From a virus: DNA of 39,326 nt. Position numbers and translations under genes: made by a program. The stretch is taken from positions 1-39,326 of IMG/VR virus record IMGVR_UViG_3300036859_000066, one strand, 5' to 3'. Numbering within the stretch: position 1 is the stretch's first letter; every line of letters starts with the position of its first letter. The notes beneath the pieces are model-generated. The model saw only the letters and a list, made by a program, of their open reading frames with translations, was not told the DNA's origin and searched no databases. Of the stretch, positions 20,198-37,422 are shown piece after piece.

Positions 20198-21157
20198 CTA
20201 GGCCCCGGGCTCGAAGTATCGCGTTTCCGTTTCCGGGTACGCCGAGCGGGCGCCGGCAAGGGCCATTGTGTAATTCGCCTCAAGTTCGTTCGTCCACACC
20301 GCCCCGAACATGGGCGCGATTAGCTTGGCAAGTCCCAACACAACCGGCAGATACCAGACCTGCGGCATGTCCAGTTCGTCAGCAGCCGCCGTCATGTCCT
20401 CGATGGGCTCAAGCCATACAACGTGCAGTTTCTTGGTCACATCGGACACGCCGGCCACGTCCAGGTACAGGACGCCGTTGGTTAGCTGCGGCTCGTAGTA
20501 GACCGCCGAAGGGTCGCCGCTGGTCGTCGTGTCGGCCTTGGACGGCAGGAGCATGAATTCCTGCATCGTCATGAACCGCACGGGAACGTCGCTGTTGTCT
20601 ATATCCCGAAGCACTACGGCCTCAAGGTTGTCCGGGCGGTTGGCCTTGGTCGTGTAGTTGAAAACGTAGTTTCCCGAGGCGGCGCTGTCGCCCGTCGGGA
20701 TGCCCGTGGTAATCGTGATCGTGGAGCCCGAGGGGGCGCCGTTAATCGTCGTCCAGTGAATGTCCCCGCTGTCCAGCTCGATGCCGATGTAATCACCGCT
20801 TGAGGCGTTCGTGATCGCGCTACAGGTCAGGGTGGTATCTGCGGCAGGGCTCGCGGCAGTCAGGGTGCGGCTGTAGGTCGTTTCGGACCAATGACCGCCC
20901 GAAGGGCCCAGCGAGAATGAGTTGGTGTCTTCCTCAAAGTACAGGTCGGCCCTGCGGCGTTTCCAGAGCTTGAGCCCGGGCGCAAAATCCGCGCGGGCCA
21001 TCCACCCCTTAAGCATCATGTTCAAAAAGTCGGTAACGTCTACCGCCTCGTTCGCGTCGGGCGTACCGTTACCAGGCAGTGCGCCAATGGACTTCATGGC
21101 GAGCGAGCGGATTTTCGTCAGCGAGGTGCTGTAGGTGACAGTCCCGGATGTGGTCAC
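20198..21157 (-). CDS. P22 gp4-like head-completion protein, 319 aa
   Basis: GTG start in a GTGA overlap with the GT9-like gene. The N-terminal helical part (DVTDFLNMMLKGWMARADF) and the C-terminal segment (MPQVWYLPVVLGLAKLIAPMFG...YETETRYFEPG-like ending) resemble P22 gp4-type tail accessory proteins. These bind the portal and seal the DNA. A beta-rich Ser/Thr/Gly segment around 95-165 is inserted between them. The position between portal/capsid and gp10 fits. Confidence 0.8.
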   Translation of the reverse strand: MTTSGTVTYSTSLTKIRSLAMKSIGALPGNGTPDANEAVDVTDFLNMMLKGWMARADFAPGLKLWKRRRADLYFEEDTNSFSLGPSGGHWSETTYSRTLTAASPAADTTLTCSAITNASSGDYIGIELDSGDIHWTTINGAPSGSTITITTGIPTGDSAASGNYVFNYTTKANRPDNLEAVVLRDIDNSDVPVRFMTMQEFMLLPSKADTTTSGDPSAVYYEPQLTNGVLYLDVAGVSDVTKKLHVVWLEPIEDMTAAADELDMPQVWYLPVVLGLAKLIAPMFGAVWTNELEANYTMALAGARSAYPETETRYFEPGA

Positions 21158-22512
21158 GCGGCCCTCTTGAACTTGTTAGCCAGCACGGCCTCAACGGCGG
21201 CCCAGCAGGTATCGGCGGAAATCTGTGACTGGCACATGGCGGCCCCGGCTTCCTCGTCCTTCCAGCAATGCGACCAGTTGTGGTGAAGCCTCAGGCACGG
21301 GTAGCAATGCACCGATAGCGGCGGGGTCAACGACTCGCAATTCACCCAATCCCGACTCAGGGACTCCTTGGGCGAGTGCGACAGGAAAAGAACCTTGGGC
21401 ACTGGCCTGTGACTGGCCGCGTTAAGGACGCCGGTTTCCGGGCCAATTACGAGGTCGGCAAATTCGATAAACGCCAAGCTCTGGCGGATGCTCCACTTGC
21501 CGCACATCCTGTGAACCCGTGGCTCGCTCTCCCAGCCCGTTTCCAGAACTTCGCATTCCGGCCCGCCCACCAGAACAACATGCGCCTCGGGGCAGCTCAG
21601 GAACAGGCGCGCAATGATCTGGTCCAGATACGGCCAGTGCTTATGAACAGACGAGCCCGACAGTGACCACAGCGCCACGAACGCGCCCATCTTTGCCCGC
21701 TGCTTTCTGGCCCACTCTGTTTCCTCGGGCGTCGGGTAGAACCGCACCTGTGGGTCATGCGGCAGGCCGGCAAGCTCGTGCTGGAACTCGACGTAGTTGC
21801 GCGTCATGTACTTGCGGCGAAGTTCTACGGGCCACTCATGGTTTGCCCTGTTCGGCAGGGCCAGCCACGCGCCCTCTACCGACTCCGACAGGTTCACGAA
21901 CTTGTCAAACTTGGTGCGCTGGTAGTTCCAGAAATCCACTAGCCGCACATTCGGCACCTGATCGCGGTCAAGCACCATAAGCCTGTCGATGTTCGGGTCA
22001 TGCGTGATTACATCGGCTCCGGGGCTCTGGGCGATTACCGTAACGTGATAGCCCTGTTTCTTGAGCCCGGCCCACACACTGGACGCCTGCATCATGTCGC
22101 CGAAGGCTCCGCACCTGTACACCAGCGCGGTCTTGCCCTGCGGCTTGTCCTTGTAGCTCTCCCGGCACTTGCCCGAGGTCAGCTTCTTGTAGACCGCCAG
22201 CCCCTCGATCTTGCTAACGCAGTCCCAGATACCGTCCGGCTCGCCCTCGCCGGTTACGCACAGATGCCCGCCGGGGCGAATGACGCGCCAGTATTCGGCG
22301 TGCACCTCCGGCGCTACAACCGCATCAAAGCTTTGGTTGGCGAAGATGCGTAGGTCGTGAACGTCCTTGACCGTTACATCTGGGCTGAGCAACCGCCCGT
22401 CAATCTCTACCGGATGATCGTTGACGTGGATGAAGTGCCGGTAAAGCTTCCCGGCGATGTGCAGCACCTTGCCGCGCGTGTATTCGGGAAGTTCCCAGCG
22501 AATGTCCGTCAA
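21154..22512 (-). CDS. GT9 (heptosyltransferase-family) with N-terminal methyltransferase-like part, 452 aa
   Basis: TTG 22512 overlaps the previous stop as TTGA and has AAGGA upstream. Residues 1-105 look like part of a class I methyltransferase fold (LRIFANQSFDAVVAPEVHAEYWRVIRPGGHLCV), without a clear SAM motif I. From residue 128 the GT9 pattern appears: ALVYRCGAFGDMMQASSVWAG, a VALWSLSGSSVHKHWP segment, VVLVGGPECEVL, and ADLVIGPETGVLNAA in the donor-binding region. GT9 enzymes move heptose from ADP-heptose to LPS or to autotransporter proteins. With gmhA/hldA/hldC in the same phage, ADP-heptose is the natural donor guess. The acceptor is unknown; the neighbours are tail and neck proteins. 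Confidence 0.85.
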   Translation of the reverse strand: MTDIRWELPEYTRGKVLHIAGKLYRHFIHVNDHPVEIDGRLLSPDVTVKDVHDLRIFANQSFDAVVAPEVHAEYWRVIRPGGHLCVTGEGEPDGIWDCVSKIEGLAVYKKLTSGKCRESYKDKPQGKTALVYRCGAFGDMMQASSVWAGLKKQGYHVTVIAQSPGADVITHDPNIDRLMVLDRDQVPNVRLVDFWNYQRTKFDKFVNLSESVEGAWLALPNRANHEWPVELRRKYMTRNYVEFQHELAGLPHDPQVRFYPTPEETEWARKQRAKMGAFVALWSLSGSSVHKHWPYLDQIIARLFLSCPEAHVVLVGGPECEVLETGWESEPRVHRMCGKWSIRQSLAFIEFADLVIGPETGVLNAASHRPVPKVLFLSHSPKESLSRDWVNCESLTPPLSVHCYPCLRLHHNWSHCWKDEEAGAAMCQSQISADTCWAAVEAVLANKFKRAA

Positions 22513-22730
22513 GCGGTCCTTTTCCAAGCGGCCAGGTATGCAATGGCCTCGGCCATACGGGCCGAACACTTGGCCCTGAACCCCTCGGATTTCGGCCTGC
22601 CGCGCATGGCGTCTCCGATCTTTCTGCGCGTTTCGTCCGATTTGTTCTTTCCGGGGTTGGCGTGTCGCGCCATTGCCTCGCGCTGCTTCTGTCGGTATTC
22701 CTCAGTTCTCACATACACGCCGCGCGGCAT
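22509..22730 (-). CDS. NUMOD3-type small DNA-binding protein, 73 aa
   Basis: A basic protein with the pattern NPGKNKSDETRRKIGDAMRG and a second partial copy before it. This matches NUMOD3 motifs usually attached to GIY-YIG or HNH homing nucleases, but no nuclease domain is present. It starts in a TAATG overlap with the tail-collar gene and ends in a TTGA overlap with the GT9 gene. It may be a remnant or a regulatory DNA binder derived from a homing endonuclease. Confidence 0.72.
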   Translation of the reverse strand: MPRGVYVRTEEYRQKQREAMARHANPGKNKSDETRRKIGDAMRGRPKSEGFRAKCSARMAEAIAYLAAWKRTA

Positions 22731-24192: not shown

Positions 24193-24213
24193 AAAACCCC
24201 GCACTCGGCGGGG
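24193..24213 (-). terminator. Intrinsic terminator downstream of the glycosyltransferase cassette
   Basis: On the minus strand CCCCGC/GCGGGG forms a six-pair stem with a five-base loop followed by four U. It lies between the stop of the GT8-like gene (24235) and the start of the next structural gene (24173). The U tract is short, so termination may be partial. Confidence 0.7.
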
Positions 24214-24234
24214 CTTGGCTTGTTGTTGCGGGGG

Positions 24235-24879
24235 TTATGCGGCCTTAAGCCGCTCCTGAACGTGTTTGTTGTGAACGGACTTCCCCATCAGCTCCGCGTA
24301 GGGAACCGTGGCGTTTGCTGCCTTGGCTTCTTCATGCCATTGCGCCGCGTACTCGCAGCCCTGCGTTTCGGGCCAGCAGGGGATGCCCTGCGTGTAATGG
24401 ATTAGCTTTGCGTCCTGCGGCTTGTCGTAGCCCACAAGGTGGTTCCACTCCGGCGGCAGTGCGCCGATGACGTTGCCCTCGAAAATCCCGAACGGATCGC
24501 CGGTCTGGACAAATTCGGGCGTGAGCGCCGAACACAGGGCGTTGTTGAACACCATCACGCTGGGCCACTCAAACTGGCGGACGTTCTTAACTACGCTGAT
24601 GGGGGCGTTTGGATCGGCCGCCGCTACCAGCTTGGCAATGTCATCCAGCACGATAATGTCGGCGTCCAAGAACACCGCCATGCCCTCGTAACCGCACAGG
24701 TGCGGCACCAGGAAGCGGCTGAACGTGAACTCGGTCAGTCCCTTGCGCGTCAGCGGCAGCGTCTTCAACACCAGCGGCGTGATCGCCACCGGAACACTGG
24801 CCCGCCTCAGAATGGACGACTGGCAGACCGTGTAGGCAAGCGGCTGGCGCGGCTCGTAGCCGATGAAGACTCGAATCAT
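24235..24879 (-). CDS. GT8-like glycosyltransferase, 214 aa
   Basis: The N-terminus has MIRVFIGYEPRQPLAYTVC, typical of GT8-like transferases. The donor/metal motif FLDADII sits at 70-76, with Asp-Ala-Asp at 72-74. A conserved SVMVFNNA segment and the late HYTQGIPCW give the His of the usual HFxG-like site. It probably transfers a sugar from a nucleotide-sugar donor. The gene is in ATGA overlap with the DUF115-methyltransferase gene, forming a two-gene cassette between terminators. The acceptor is not known. Confidence 0.83.
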   Translation of the reverse strand: MIRVFIGYEPRQPLAYTVCQSSILRRASVPVAITPLVLKTLPLTRKGLTEFTFSRFLVPHLCGYEGMAVFLDADIIVLDDIAKLVAAADPNAPISVVKNVRQFEWPSVMVFNNALCSALTPEFVQTGDPFGIFEGNVIGALPPEWNHLVGYDKPQDAKLIHYTQGIPCWPETQGCEYAAQWHEEAKAANATVPYAELMGKSVHNKHVQERLKAA

Positions 24880-26426
24880 GCCGCCACCGCCACGCTGTTA
24901 GCTGAGCCCTTTTCAGAGGCAATCTTTTCCGTAGCGTCCGGCTTCTGGCAGGCGAGATAAACGGAGTTCTCGTCCACAACTGCCTCGACCACCACGAAAT
25001 ACTGCGACACCTTCTTGTGCCACCACTGCGCCGATCTAAGCGTGATGTGTGCGTTGCGGCCGTCCGGCAGGGTCTTGCCCGCTTCCTCAAGCGCAACCGA
25101 GAACACCGCCACATACCGCGCCTTAGCCGCGATGTACTTCAGCGTGTTCTCTACGCACTGTTCCTCAACGTGTTCCAGCACGTCGAAGCACGTCACAATG
25201 TCGTGAACGCCCGGTTCCGGGTTGTCCCGCCACCTGGGGTGAAACGGGTCGTAGTTCGTAACGCTGACCGGCCTGAACAGGTCAGTCAGTGACTTGCCCA
25301 GCGCACCAGACCCAGCCCCGTAGTCCATGACGGTGATGGGCCGCTTGAGCTGGTCGTAGAGCGAGAGAATCCCCCGGCCAATGGTTTCGTTTTCGTGGTC
25401 GCCCCAGAGGCCGTAGCCTCCTTGTTCGTGCAGTTGGCGCTGCATCTGTGCGTACTCATCCGTCCAGCGCCTGTCGCCAATTGCGGCCCTGATGCGCTCC
25501 TGCTGCTTGCGGTGAATCTCAAGCCAGTGGCGGTTGAGCGAGTCGCCGTGGACAACTACGTCCAAACGCCCCTCCAGCCGATCTACCCACTTGATGAACT
25601 GCTTAGCCTGATGGGCAAACCCGGGCGAGGTCAGGAACTCCCTGCCATCCGGGGTCTTGGCAACCTGGATCGCCTCGGCCCGGAATTTCTTGTAGGCGTA
25701 AAAAAAGCCGCCCTCGGCGGCTTCGTCTACGACGTATGTCCTTGGACTGTCTTCGTCCTGGTATTGCAAGCCCTCGCTTTTCTTCAGCGCCTCGGCAAAC
25801 CTCGGGTCGTCCGAGTAGATGACCGGCGGCTGCTGGTCGGTGTAGCAGGAGTCGAAGCCGTAAAACTCCATGCGGGCATAGCCCAGCATCACGGTAAACG
25901 GCATGGCCCGCAGCGGCGTCATGGTCCCGCCCACTACATAGTCGTGGCCCGGGTTGTCATAGAGCCGCTTGTGCGCCTTGATATCGGATTCATCGTCCAG
26001 CCCGTAGGCAACGAGAATCTTGGTTACGTCGTAGCCCTCAAGGTTCTTGAAGACCCCGGGATTACACACCGAGGCAACGTAATACTTGACGCACTTCTGC
26101 GGGTTTTGAACGCAGTCCTTAACCGACTCCCGAGGATCAATCAGAATACATGCGTTGGGCATGATGCCGTTCTCAATCAGGTAGTCGTGAGTGTTGTTTG
26201 AGGTCAGAATGAACTCGCCAGCCTCGTGGCGCTTCTTCAGCTCCGGCAGCGTCTTCAGCAGCGACGGCCCACCGGCTACAAAAATCAGTGTCCCGCCGTG
26301 GGACTTCAGCTTACTGAACACCGGGACACCATTGGTCCCGTTCGCCTCGATATTGGCGATTACTTCAGTTGTCGGTATTGGCCCGCCCTTCACATCTTCA
26401 GCGGGTTTGAAGCCGTCGTCTGACAT
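24876..26426 (-). CDS. Maf/DUF115-like glycosyltransferase fused to a class I methyltransferase, 516 aa
   Basis: Strong SD AGGAGG before ATG 26426, directly after the U tract of terminator 26436-26471. Residues 45-195 match the DUF115/MptE-like domain of Maf flagellin glycosyltransferases: LIFVAGGPSLLKTL, SNNTHDYLIENGIMP, CILIDPRE, VVGGTMTPLRAM and ARMEFYGFDSCY. Residues 363-470 form a SAM methyltransferase, with DYGAGSGALG as motif I and FDVLEHVEE downstream. Maf proteins glycosylate flagellin in bacteria. Here the fusion suggests that a sugar is both transferred and methylated. An intrinsic-terminator-like sequence lies inside the coding region at 25700-25723. Confidence 0.87.
   Translation of the reverse strand: MSDDGFKPAEDVKGGPIPTTEVIANIEANGTNGVPVFSKLKSHGGTLIFVAGGPSLLKTLPELKKRHEAGEFILTSNNTHDYLIENGIMPNACILIDPRESVKDCVQNPQKCVKYYVASVCNPGVFKNLEGYDVTKILVAYGLDDESDIKAHKRLYDNPGHDYVVGGTMTPLRAMPFTVMLGYARMEFYGFDSCYTDQQPPVIYSDDPRFAEALKKSEGLQYQDEDSPRTYVVDEAAEGGFFYAYKKFRAEAIQVAKTPDGREFLTSPGFAHQAKQFIKWVDRLEGRLDVVVHGDSLNRHWLEIHRKQQERIRAAIGDRRWTDEYAQMQRQLHEQGGYGLWGDHENETIGRGILSLYDQLKRPITVMDYGAGSGALGKSLTDLFRPVSVTNYDPFHPRWRDNPEPGVHDIVTCFDVLEHVEEQCVENTLKYIAAKARYVAVFSVALEEAGKTLPDGRNAHITLRSAQWWHKKVSQYFVVVEAVVDENSVYLACQKPDATEKIASEKGSANSVAVAA
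25700..25723 (-). terminator. Intrinsic-terminator-like sequence inside a coding region
   Basis: On the minus strand the codons for EAAEGGFFY (residues 235-243 of the DUF115 protein) form an eight-pair stem AAGCCGCC/GGCGGCTT with a GAG loop, followed directly by seven U. The stem is almost the same as that of the terminator at 13608. Two Phe codons are TTT TTT although TTC is common in this GC-rich genome. Termination here would leave a DUF115 fragment without the methyltransferase. Confidence 0.7.
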
Positions 26427-26435
26427 GTGCCTCCT

Positions 26436-26471
26436 AAAAAAGAACCCCCGGGGCCGTGAAGCCCCGAGGGT
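26436..26471 (-). terminator. Intrinsic terminator after the capsid genes
   Basis: On the minus strand an 11-base stem (one mismatch) with a six-base loop is followed by UUCUUUUUU. It lies between the stop of the 150-aa structural gene (26486) and the start of the DUF115 gene (26426). The downstream SD overlaps the end of the U tract, so there is no room for a separate promoter after it. Confidence 0.88.
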
Positions 26472-26485
26472 CCGAGTTACAGCGG

Positions 26486-33319: not shown

Positions 33320-33854
33320 GAGGCTTAGCGCGTGCCCCGGATAGCATTGCGCGGGATAGGTTTTTTCTGTGCTCGTCAGAGAATTTTCTTCCCTTTAGCG
33401 CCGCCGCGATCTTCGCCCTGTGCTCTGCCGACTTGGGCTTGCGGGCGGCCAATTTGAACGCCTCGGACCTTGGGCCGCGCCCGAATTGATTGCCGCGCAT
33501 TCGCTCCGCGAGGCGGGCCTTGTGCTCTGGCGTGTGGCGATAGCCAAGAGCGCCGTCCCCGCCATCAGTAAGATTTAAGAGTCTCGCCCCGGTCTTCCTG
33601 TAAAAAGAAATCAGTTGCCGCTCTGTTTGGCCCCAAACACCGAACTGCGGCGGGGCCAACACCACGGCCCGCACACTCTCGCCACGAGCCCGCAAAGAGC
33701 GAATCCATCTATGAACCGGGGTCTTGCCGGAGGCGCTATTGCCAAAATGCCGCGTGAGCCGAACGCCTACCGGGCGTATCGTCTGACCGACGTACCGAAT
33801 CTCGTATTTGGATGCCGCCGTCAGCCCGTAGACCCAACAACTATTTGCTTTCAA
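33315..33854 (-). CDS. GIY-YIG homing endonuclease with NUMOD3 motifs, 179 aa
   Basis: Start taken at TTG 33854 with GAGG four bases upstream; another TTG at 33878 is possible. WVYGLT...IRYVGQT gives the GIY-YIG pair at residues 8-23, followed by an Arg in RLTRHF, a Glu in GQTERQL and an Asn in LLNLTDGGDG. Three NUMOD3-type motifs follow (HTPEHKARLAERMRG, KSAEHRAKIAAALKG, FSDEHRKNLSRAMLSG). It overlaps the hldC stop and the first TerL codons. It is a selfish homing gene placed exactly at the 5' end of terL. Confidence 0.92.
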   Translation of the reverse strand: MKANSCWVYGLTAASKYEIRYVGQTIRPVGVRLTRHFGNSASGKTPVHRWIRSLRARGESVRAVVLAPPQFGVWGQTERQLISFYRKTGARLLNLTDGGDGALGYRHTPEHKARLAERMRGNQFGRGPRSEAFKLAARKPKSAEHRAKIAAALKGRKFSDEHRKNLSRAMLSGARAKPQ

Positions 33855-34275
33855 GCAGCCTCGTTGTCGAATGGCCAACGTGGTACGGCAGCACCAGCGC
33901 CCTGCCGGCGTATTGCCTGCCGGCGATCTGCTCGGGCTGGTAGTCGCCGCCCTTCACCAGCACATCCGGCAGAACTAGCCCAATCAGCCGCTCCGGCGTG
34001 TCCTCGCTGAAAGCCGCAACCGCGTCCACGCAGCGCAACTCAGACAGCACCGCCATGCGATCTGCCAGCGTGTTGATGGGCCGGCCCGGCTTGAGCCTGC
34101 CCGTTGATTCGTCGTCGTTTACCGCGACAATCAGCGCATGGCCCAGGTCGCGGGCGGCCTGCAGATACCGGATGTGCCCGACGTGCAGCAGGTCGAACAC
34201 CCCGTTAGTCATCACAATCTTCCAGCCGAACACACGGGCCGCATTGACGTAGGCCAGCAGCTCAGGCTCGGTCAC
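33841..34275 (-). CDS. hldC: D-glycero-beta-D-manno-heptose-1-phosphate adenylyltransferase, 144 aa
   Basis: The nucleotidyltransferase motif [10 protein letters not shown] is at 25-34, with [12 protein letters not shown] and [15 protein letters not shown] in the usual places and a C-terminal HSTTRLLE. This is the RfaE2/HldE C-terminal type. It transfers AMP from ATP to heptose-1-phosphate to give ADP-heptose. The gene is separate, not fused to the kinase as in enteric HldE, and overlaps hldA by four bases. Its stop lies within the start region of the GIY-YIG gene. Confidence 0.95.
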
Positions 34276-35084
34276 AGGCCCAGCTCGGCCATGGTGACTG
34301 TGGCCGCCCCAAGCTTGCCAACCTTGATGCCGGCGGCCTTGTTCGCCAAATAGGCCGCCTCAGACATGCTCGCGCCATCGGCCAGCATCACGGCCATAGT
34401 CGCAATGACCGTATCGCCCGCCCCGGTTACGTCGTACACCTCGCGGGCTTGAGCGGGCAGATGCAGCGCCGGCTTGCCGCGCTCGATCAGCGTCATGCCG
34501 CTCTCACCGCGAGTGACGAGCAGGGCCGTCAGGTCAAGTTCTTCAACCAAGCATTCGCCCTTGCGAGCAATGTCGGCCTCATCGCGGCACTTGCCCACGT
34601 ACACCTCAAACTCGGACAGATTCGGCGTGAGCAGCGTCGCCTCCTCATAGCGTCCGTAGTCATCGCCCTTGGGGTCTACCAGCACGGGCTTACCAGCCGC
34701 CATCTCGATCATCTGCGCCACATCAACCAGCGTGCCCTTGCCGTAGTCCGACAGGATCACAACGTCAGCGTCGGGCAGTGCTGCGCGGTACTCCGCCAGC
34801 AGCGCCTTGCGGTCAAACTCTAACGGCCGCTCGAAGTCCAGCCTGATTAGCTGCTGATGCCGCGACATGACGCGCAGCTTGCGTATCTGCGGGCCGAAGT
34901 CGCCCAGCAGGGTTACGTCTGCGCCCAGCGCCTTGACGTTTGCCGCCACGTTAGCGGCCCCGCCCGGCCTAGTCTCCGTGTGCTGCACCAGCACCACCGG
35001 GACAGGGGCCTCGGGCGATATGCGCTCAGTTGCCCCGGTCCAATATTCGTCCTGCATCACGTCGCCAACAACCAGCACGTTCAC
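34272..35084 (-). CDS. hldA: D-glycero-beta-D-manno-heptose-7-phosphate kinase, 270 aa, shortened
   Basis: Start GTG 35084 in a GTGA overlap with gmhA. PfkB-family signatures: [10 protein letters not shown] at 22-31, [10 protein letters not shown] at 41-50, [23 protein letters not shown], and the catalytic DVTGAGDTV near residue 230. Against the E. coli HldE kinase as I remember it, about 28 residues are missing between LLGDFG (59-64) and [19 protein letters not shown]. Everything else aligns well. It would phosphorylate the C1 position of heptose-7-phosphate. Whether the shortened enzyme is active is open. Confidence 0.93.
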
Positions 35085-35644
35085 AGCCCTAGCGCCGCCT
35101 CGATGTGCGCGCACAGGGCGTGCCCGATGAACTCGTGCGCCTCCTGGATGCGGGCGGTTACGTTGCTGGGGACGCAGACAGCGGCGCGGCAGAACTGACG
35201 GACCTCGCCGCCATCGCGCCCAAGCAACCCCACAACCGGCATCCCGATATCTAGCGCCGCCTTGGCGGCCTCAACAATGTTCGGCGAATTGCCAGAAGTA
35301 GACAGGACCACAAGCAAATCGGCCTCGGTCCCAAGCGCGCGTAGCTGGCGGGCGAACACTTGGTCATAGCCGTAATCGTTGGCTATGGCCGTCAGCGCGG
35401 AGGTGTCAGTGGTAAGCGCGATGGCGGCCAGCGGCGGGCGGTCGTGCACAAACCGGCCGGTCAGCTCCGCAGCAAGGTGCTGCGCGGCGGCGGCCGAACC
35501 GCCATTGCCGCAGAGGAACAACGCGCCCCCTGCGTTCTTAAGACAGCCCACCATCTGGCTGGCAACCTGTCTGAATGGAAGGTCCAGCCCGTCCATTTCC
35601 TTGAACAGCGCCACATGCTCGGCTAGTTGCTGGCTGTATGTCAT
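35081..35644 (-). CDS. gmhA: Sedoheptulose-7-phosphate isomerase GmhA, 187 aa
   Basis: The SIS-fold motifs are complete: [18 protein letters not shown] at 43-60 with the catalytic-type Glu60, STSGNSPN at 115-122, and QEAHEFIGH at 167-175 with His170. GmhA converts sedoheptulose-7-phosphate to D-glycero-D-manno-heptose-7-phosphate, the first step of ADP-heptose synthesis. It sits just downstream of the TerS candidate with ATGA overlap and is the first gene of the cassette. Full length for the family. Confidence 0.96.
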
Positions 35645-36504: not shown

Positions 36505-36513
36505 ATTATATCA
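36505..36513 (-). promoter_or_regulatory. Probable late promoter, extended -10
   Basis: On the minus strand the sequence TGATATAAT is a perfect extended -10 (TGn plus TATAAT). No -35 consensus is found at 16-18 bases; the nearest TTGACC is 24 bases away. The start point would fall near 36498. The promoter follows the Q-like gene and precedes the packaging genes. Confidence 0.65.
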
Positions 36514-36546
36514 AACCTTTAGTGGTTTGTGTTGGGTCAAACCACT
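36512..36546. promoter_or_regulatory. Operator-like array of CAAACC half-sites
   Basis: Three half-sites alternate in orientation: CAAACC at 36512-36517, GGTTTG at 36524-36529 and CAAACC at 36538-36543. The last two belong to a nine-base inverted repeat AGTGGTTTG/CAAACCACT (36521-36546) with an eight-base spacer. The array covers the -35 position and touches the extended -10. It starts at the stop of the Q-like gene. It probably binds a phage regulator, which could activate or repress. Confidence 0.7.
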
Positions 36547-37117
36547 ATCCACTGTGCCTTTCATCGGAAAGTTGCCGCGCCAGTTCCGCTATCGCCCTGC
36601 CCTCAAGCTGGCTCAGCTCGCGGTACACGTCCTCATAGCGCCACTTCCACGGTGGCTTGCCGTGATCCCATTGGGCGGGCGGAATCTCAAGCGCCTCGCG
36701 CCGATCCTCCACGCTCAGGCGCTCGCTGCCCGTTGCATCGCAAACATGACACGCCCTGGTGCCGATGAACTTGGCGCCCTTGCACACCGGGCACGGGCGG
36801 GGGGCCAGCATCTCGTAAAGGGCTCCATGGGCTAACCGCCTGTACCACCGCTCACCCTTTGGCCCGTCATCCCAGCCCTTCCTGATGGCGAGCTGGATAA
36901 CGCTGTCGTACACCTCCCGGTAGAACTCCGGGCACTGCTGGGTGGTGTAGTGGTTGAAAACGTACTTGTGCAGCAGGATTGCGCCACCGATTGCGTTGCA
37001 GTGCGCGACCCCTAACGCAATGTCCTGGGTGGTGAATTCCGGGATGCCGTTAGGGGCGGCTGCCTTCTCAGGCCAGATTGAGCGAACCGTCAGCTTGGTG
37101 ATCCGCTCTGCGCTCAC
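36545..37117 (-). CDS. Q-like antiterminator with zinc-binding motif, 190 aa
   Basis: GTG 37117 in GTGA overlap. The helical N-terminal half (TTQDIALGVAHCNAIGGAILLHKY) is followed by CPVC...CHVCDATG, a four-cysteine zinc motif similar to that of phage 82/21-type Q or DUF1133 proteins. The tail has a WKWRYEDVYRELSQLEG helix. The position between the nin-type genes and the late promoter fits late-gene antitermination, and the late operon contains several intrinsic terminators. The family assignment is by pattern. Confidence 0.78.
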   Translation of the reverse strand: MSAERITKLTVRSIWPEKAAAPNGIPEFTTQDIALGVAHCNAIGGAILLHKYVFNHYTTQQCPEFYREVYDSVIQLAIRKGWDDGPKGERWYRRLAHGALYEMLAPRPCPVCKGAKFIGTRACHVCDATGSERLSVEDRREALEIPPAQWDHGKPPWKWRYEDVYRELSQLEGRAIAELARQLSDERHSG

Positions 37118-37422
37118 GCGCCCCCCTTCCCGCTCTTGGGCCGCGCCCGCGCAAATGGCCCGCTTAGCGTTGCCGCCCACTCCGCAACTTGCCAAGCGTA
37201 AAGGGCCCCCGCGTTCTCAACCCGCGCCCCGCCCATGTGGGAAATTCGAATGTCGGGCCTTGGCTTGACGGTGCGCTTGCCCCTGAACAGCGGGCACTCC
37301 GCCCCAATGACCAGCCGGAACTCCCGCTCCGTCGTCTGCGGTGCCCGACCCCACAAAAGAAAATGCAGCAGACTTTTTATCGACCCACCGTCACAACTTG
37401 CTGATCGAAGCGCTGTGGTCAT
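37114..37422 (-). CDS. Hypothetical nin-region protein, 102 aa
   Basis: ATG 37422 with GAGG upstream; an in-frame earlier start exists but would overlap RusA more. The protein begins MTTALRSASCDGGSIKSLLH and contains a basic segment (FRGKRTVKPRPDIRI) followed by AGALYAWQVAEWAATLSGP. No named family is recognised. It sits between RusA and Q, a place where small nin-type genes are usual. Confidence 0.7.
   Translation of the reverse strand: MTTALRSASCDGGSIKSLLHFLLWGRAPQTTEREFRLVIGAECPLFRGKRTVKPRPDIRISHMGGARVENAGALYAWQVAEWAATLSGPFARARPKSGKGGA

Follow-up and report, generated by a model that had tools for sequence, protein, structure and literature searches.

A terminator-like hairpin within a phage MptE-like/methyltransferase gene: probably a latent element of chance origin

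Introduction

When a hairpin and T run resembling an intrinsic terminator lie deep inside a phage gene, do they regulate the genes that follow, or are they a by-product of the protein and its codons? The question is raised by IMG/VR virus record IMGVR_UViG_3300036859_000066, whose 39,326 bases are referred to below as the window. About 700 nt into a minus-strand gene that fuses an MptE-like (DUF115) part to a methyltransferase, a hairpin begins that is followed directly by a run of T. The original prediction was that this element could halt transcription ahead of the methyltransferase part and of the adjoining GT8-like gene unless RNA polymerase had been modified by a Q-type antiterminator.

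In-gene terminator-like sites are, as a kind, already known. According to Li and colleagues (PMC4824070), a terminator in E. coli works efficiently when it lies within the first 100 bp of a coding region, whereas one placed further in is repressed, partly in the tested construct, by the following ribosome. Terminator-like structures inside genes serve as background in PMC1852404.

Results

The minus strand at 25724-25700 reads GAAGCCGCCGAGGGCGGCTTTTTTT. Within it, the 24 bases at 25723-25700 (8+3+8+5) comprise a 5' arm (AAGCCGCC), a GAG loop, a 3' arm (GGCGGCTT) and then TTTTT. The hairpin is G+C rich, the U tract follows immediately, and both lie on the transcribed strand, such that the in-gene element is real and matches an intrinsic terminator in the sense direction. 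It had been described as eight pairs plus seven U; the hairpin, its loop and the T7 run all exist, but two T were counted twice in that description, and the element has either 6 G-C pairs with U7 or 8 pairs with U5 (9 pairs with G-U). Residues 235-243 are encoded, as claimed, by GAA GCC GCC GAG GGC GGC TTT TTT TAC, a G+C-rich coding stretch specifying Glu-Ala-Ala-Glu-Gly-Gly-Phe-Phe at the hairpin, with TTT used for both phenylalanines.

The predicted fold of the hairpin alone is -12.9 kcal/mol. Folded within a 40-nt context it reaches -21.0, where shuffled sequences average -9.6 (z -4.8). Its T run is the longest in the window, and neither strand has another run of 7 T; runs of at least 6 T number 5. 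A stock terminator scan of the window did not list the in-gene hairpin, and our reading of this omission is that the rule of that scan counts too few T once the stem has been extended into the run. The d'Aubenton-Carafa score is +16 or +36 depending on the choice of stem end, and +43 for the intergenic terminator upstream of the gene (Table 1).

Table 1. Features of the window relevant to the in-gene element
Feature	Coordinates	Strand	Basis or remark
In-gene terminator-like hairpin and T run	25700..25723	-	sequence, fold, codon draws
MptE-like (DUF115, PF01973) + methyltransferase (PF13489) fusion, 516 aa	24876..26426	-	Pfam
Insert, codons of residues 196-234	25725..25841	-	lacking in aligned homologues
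GT8-like gene	24235..24879	-	start overlaps MptE-methyltransferase stop
Stronger intergenic terminator, after capsid cassette, directly upstream of gene	26436..26473	-	scan, fold, relatives
Terminator-like hairpin (T4), just past GT8 gene	24197..24213	-	perfect-stem scan
Weakly Q-like ORF; alternative start GTG at 37117	36545..37195	-	PHROG 127
Candidate late promoter	36505..36547	-	TGATATAAT at 36513-36505, repeats
GmhA-like isomerase	35081-35644	-	
HldE kinase domain	34272-35114	-	over NCBIfam cut-off
HldE adenylyltransferase-like	33841-34275	-	

In the protein, Pfam places the MptE-like part at residues 25-197 (53.8 bits, with a curated cut-off of 34.6) and the methyltransferase at residues 347-449 (33.4 bits, cut-off 27). 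The hairpin starts at the end of an insert of about 39 residues that sets the window protein apart from its syntenic homologue in locus L093 (30% identical in one comparison, 34% over the alignment) and that matches nothing else in the window or in the fetched loci. In alignments, MptE-like homology resumes past the hairpin and extends to about residue 303; the element is thus situated within the MptE-like region and, as predicted, upstream of the methyltransferase part and GT8. An intergenic terminator fused at the joint between the domains was considered and ruled out, since MptE-like homology extends past the site. In an AlphaFold model, residues 198-251, a poorly predicted loop containing the hairpin codons, have a pLDDT below 50, and the top Foldseek match of the model is the Maf glycosyltransferase PDB 5mu5 (E 3.3e-6).

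No close homologue of the fusion gene was found in our searches: tblastn returned none in the 84 loci retrieved on the basis of capsid and portal, and PF01973 was absent from the 49 of those 84 records that were searched whole. Distant homologues were recovered by two alignment-based scans, one using a methyltransferase alignment and the other an alignment of two proteins. These gave 33 further ORFs containing an MptE-like part, the number of contigs being 30 once three duplicates had been set aside. The methyltransferase is also present in 31 of these 33 ORFs, in either domain order (reversed in L199, L244, L231, L104, L217 and L096), and a standalone short methyltransferase gene is also found in phages. 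The hairpin has no counterpart in any homologue examined, with 0 of the 30 contigs bearing an interior terminator under the same definition with at least five T. The conservation expected of a selected terminator is therefore not seen among these proteins, which are only about 24-33% identical to the window protein and too distant to reveal recent selection. The aligned stretch of L093 contains neither hairpin nor T run; the terminator in L093 and L173 is intergenic, right before the ribosome-binding site of the MptE-like gene.

Taken alone, the window genome is unlikely to contain such a site. Among 300 synonymous draws of its 27 minus-strand coding sequences, the mean number of comparable sites (at least 6 pairs, at least 5 of them G-C, and at least six T) was 0.027, and 1 was observed. 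When codons were redrawn for the unchanged peptide, 713 of 40,000 draws (~1.8%) yielded a comparable site, and 208 of 40,000 yielded one with at least 8 pairs, at least 6 G-C and at least six T. Both phenylalanines of the hairpin are encoded by TTT although TTC is commoner (174 versus 72), and the other four Phe-Phe pairs listed are all TTCTTC.

Because the finding was picked from a scan of the whole window, the fair test is the rate in comparable genes. This rate was obtained from 1,992 genes (1.55 Mb) in the window plus 245 fetched phage loci, with genes called as longest ORFs and 20 shuffles per definition. Repeats L001, L093, L137 and L110 were removed before counting, and some same-contig locus pairs (e.g., L095/L185 and L161/L206) were kept in the observed and shuffled sets alike. 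Interior sense sites with at least 6 pairs, at least 5 G-C and at least six T numbered 3, compared with a synonymous-shuffle mean of 2.90 (sd 1.84), so the excess over synonymous-codon expectation that would mark selected terminators is not present. The corresponding values were 3 observed versus 1.95 shuffled for at least 7 pairs, at least 6 G-C and at least five T, and 2 versus 0.75 (sd 1.09) for the strictest class (at least 8 pairs, at least 6 G-C, at least six T), which is mildly over expectation on small numbers. In-gene terminator-like sites thus occur near the chance level in these phage loci. The pattern with at least 6 pairs occurred 18 times in 0.256 Mb outside genes and 11 times in 1.529 Mb of coding sequence (both strands, gene edges included), and this roughly 10-fold higher intergenic density indicates that the definition does detect terminators.

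Two further sites resemble the in-gene element. The portal gene of a capsid relative (L010, 2051-2078, plus strand) holds a similar in-gene terminator-like site (GAAGCCGCC..., T8), and the stem of the window's terminator at 13629-13605 (minus strand), after an HNH endonuclease gene, is nearly the same as that of the in-gene site.

Perfect-stem terminators with T4 or more number four in the window, all on the minus strand. Their stems, excluding the T runs, lie at 26473-26442, at the in-gene site, at 24213-24197 past GT8, and at 13629-13612 after the HNH gene. The one upstream of the fusion gene folds at -27.5 kcal/mol, compared with -12.9 for the in-gene hairpin, and its T run ends beside the ribosome-binding site of the gene (26436/26435). 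In the window (26427-26441, minus strand) as in L173 (3845-3865, plus strand), the T run of the terminator reaches right up to the probable Shine-Dalgarno sequence of the MptE-methyltransferase gene. In 8 of 9 cases (the window and 7 of 8 hand-picked relatives) the capsid cassette has a terminator close to its end, two of these terminators overlapping a short called ORF. Sequence continues for 700 nt or more beyond the capsid gene in 78 loci, window included, and 15 of these have a perfect-stem terminator within 1,200 nt past that gene.

By its position, the upstream terminator would be passed by any polymerase coming from the capsid genes before the in-gene site is reached. With this stronger terminator in front of them, the MptE-methyltransferase and GT8 genes already depend on read-through, barring an unseen promoter. 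A scan with an E. coli consensus found no sigma-70-like promoter on the minus strand from 39326 to 19500. A search for a T7-type RNA polymerase gave no match, as did its control.

The MptE-methyltransferase/GT8 pair is bracketed by terminator-like sites (24197-26473, minus strand). Where relatives lack the pair, the capsid and GT9-like genes lie closer together, and the pair looks like an accessory module. The gene at 21154-22569 (minus strand) has a sub-threshold GT9 match, and genes 44-52% identical to it occur near the same place in 8 of 8 relatives; its product may be a structural protein and not a glycosyltransferase. Elsewhere on the minus strand, at 33841-35644, three adjacent genes for ADP-heptose precursors are found (Table 1), and no GmhB phosphatase was named among the proteins scanned.

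For the proposed link to Q-type antitermination, the window offers one candidate protein. An ORF near NinB has a weak 64-residue match (E 1.5e-5) to PHROG 127, annotated as anti-termination Q-like. It had no match to the Pfam Q families PF06530 and PF03589, neither PDB sequences nor phage tblastn yielded a relevant match, and searches for its relatives gave no matches. Among 45 related records, the one other match to phrog_127 is a DnaJ-type zinc finger, and the model of the ORF from its lone sequence (mean pLDDT 44.9) is too poor for use. Just past its stop lies the window's only TATAAT, in the extended -10 form TGATATAAT, with 0.10 expected by chance. The candidate promoter also has a perfect 10-bp inverted repeat (36547-36520) and 7-bp direct repeats 26 nt apart, which form a candidate operator-like arrangement. 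From 36505 to the next genes, no tR'-like terminator was found on the minus strand in a scan covering perfect stems only. Together, the ORF and the TATAAT make late antitermination plausible in the window, but the homology is weak and no tR'-like perfect-stem terminator was seen.

Discussion

We put at roughly three in four the probability that the in-gene element is an accidental, latent (cryptic) intrinsic terminator, which translation masks together with whatever lets polymerase through the upstream terminator. This assessment draws on the observed sequence, its predicted fold, its chance-level frequency, its absence in homologues and the terminator-like site upstream. The terminator would have arisen by chance in a G+C-rich coding stretch and, in translated late mRNA, would be mostly silent, with a ribosome closely trailing RNA polymerase presumably covering the 5' arm of the hairpin. 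Any polymerase arriving there would have passed the terminator at 26473 through leakiness or a processive antiterminator. When translation of the gene fails, the element could stop the polymerase, which would amount to a polarity effect with no dedicated switch.

Several observations count against this explanation: the site is improbable in the window genome (0.027), the strictest class is over expectation (2 versus 0.75), TTT TTT is used despite the preference for TTC, and repression late in the coding region was only partial in the construct described in PMC4824070. Runaway transcription occurs in some hosts, as outlined in PMC13323073, and in such hosts ribosomes would not mask the element.

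Selection could instead have retained the element as a surveillance terminator, silent under trailing ribosomes and cutting transcription of the module once translation is blocked. Its position far inside the ORF, in a region where terminators are repressed by ribosomes, suits this role, which is proposed for such terminators in PMC4824070, and intragenic 3' ends in P. aeruginosa rise under a ribosome-targeting antibiotic, as summarized in PMC8297930; with neither an excess over synonymous shuffles nor conservation, the reading is unlikely. Gating by Q, in which unmodified polymerase would halt and Q-modified polymerase would continue into the methyltransferase part and GT8, is quite improbable. 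It accords with a good sense-direction match, with the weakly Q-like ORF and the candidate late promoter, both of which lie upstream and on the strand of the site, and with the presence of all four perfect-stem terminators on the late strand, but the same chance-level frequency and lack of conservation apply, the Q homology is weak, no tR'-like terminator was seen in the leader, and the stronger terminator just upstream would gate these genes already, so that Q-type gating at the in-gene site would add little. Given the chance-level frequency, the absence from all homologues examined and the prior gating, a regulatory role for the site finds no support.

The hairpin might alternatively be the remnant of an intergenic terminator captured by fusion or insertion, given that it directly follows an insert unique to the window protein and nearly shares its stem with the intergenic terminator at 13629-13605. 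The insert, however, lacks a match elsewhere in the window or loci, and MptE-like homology runs on after the hairpin; an old fused terminator is unlikely because the hairpin codons sit in a loop of low model confidence inside the MptE-like region and away from the domain joint, and we regard the remnant reading as very improbable. Slippage or frameshifting at the T7 run, which sits in frame after the hairpin, would give truncated MptE-like proteins of 274 or 264 aa when a base is gained or lost; such products would have only short extra tails, the T run is lacking from the aligned stretch of L093, and the truncation would fall within the MptE-like part, leaving this reading barely credible. 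It is also highly improbable that a working mid-ORF terminator sets the balance between truncated and full MptE-methyltransferase and GT8 transcription, whether via Q-type antitermination or ribosome proximity. If it did, a glycan-modification module would be dosed within a single ORF.

For the phage loci sampled, the base rate indicates that in-gene sites match codon use and protein sequence, being neither favored nor purged, on small numbers. At such a rate, one conspicuous site of this kind within a gene counts only weakly as evidence for regulation. Of more use is the neighboring anatomy: a post-capsid terminator common to several relatives, then, in this phage, an accessory glycan-modification gene pair, then a closing terminator.

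Known systems resemble different parts of this locus. The Maf glycosyltransferase 5mu5 aligns to the window protein with TM-scores of only 0.33/0.27 and 12% identity, and unlike it the window protein is fused to a methyltransferase. Q-dependent late antitermination in phage 21 (PMC6606751) resembles the window in that a weakly Q-like ORF precedes a repeat-bearing candidate late promoter, and the window's late genes are on the same strand as the ORF. The 21Q binding site, as given there, is a 6 bp direct repeat with contacts at -21 and -13, whereas the window has 7 bp repeats at 26 nt and an inverted repeat, weak homology and no tR'-like terminator seen. In T7 and LUZ100, as presented in PMC10134795, a strong terminator follows the major capsid gene, and the terminator at 26473 likewise ends the capsid cassette; this likeness belongs to that neighboring terminator and not to the in-gene site. 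The in-gene site itself, although in a late gene of an uncultured phage, shares with the putative intrinsic terminators in E. coli coding regions treated in PMC4824070 a sense hairpin and U tract deep in an ORF, where masking by translation is expected.
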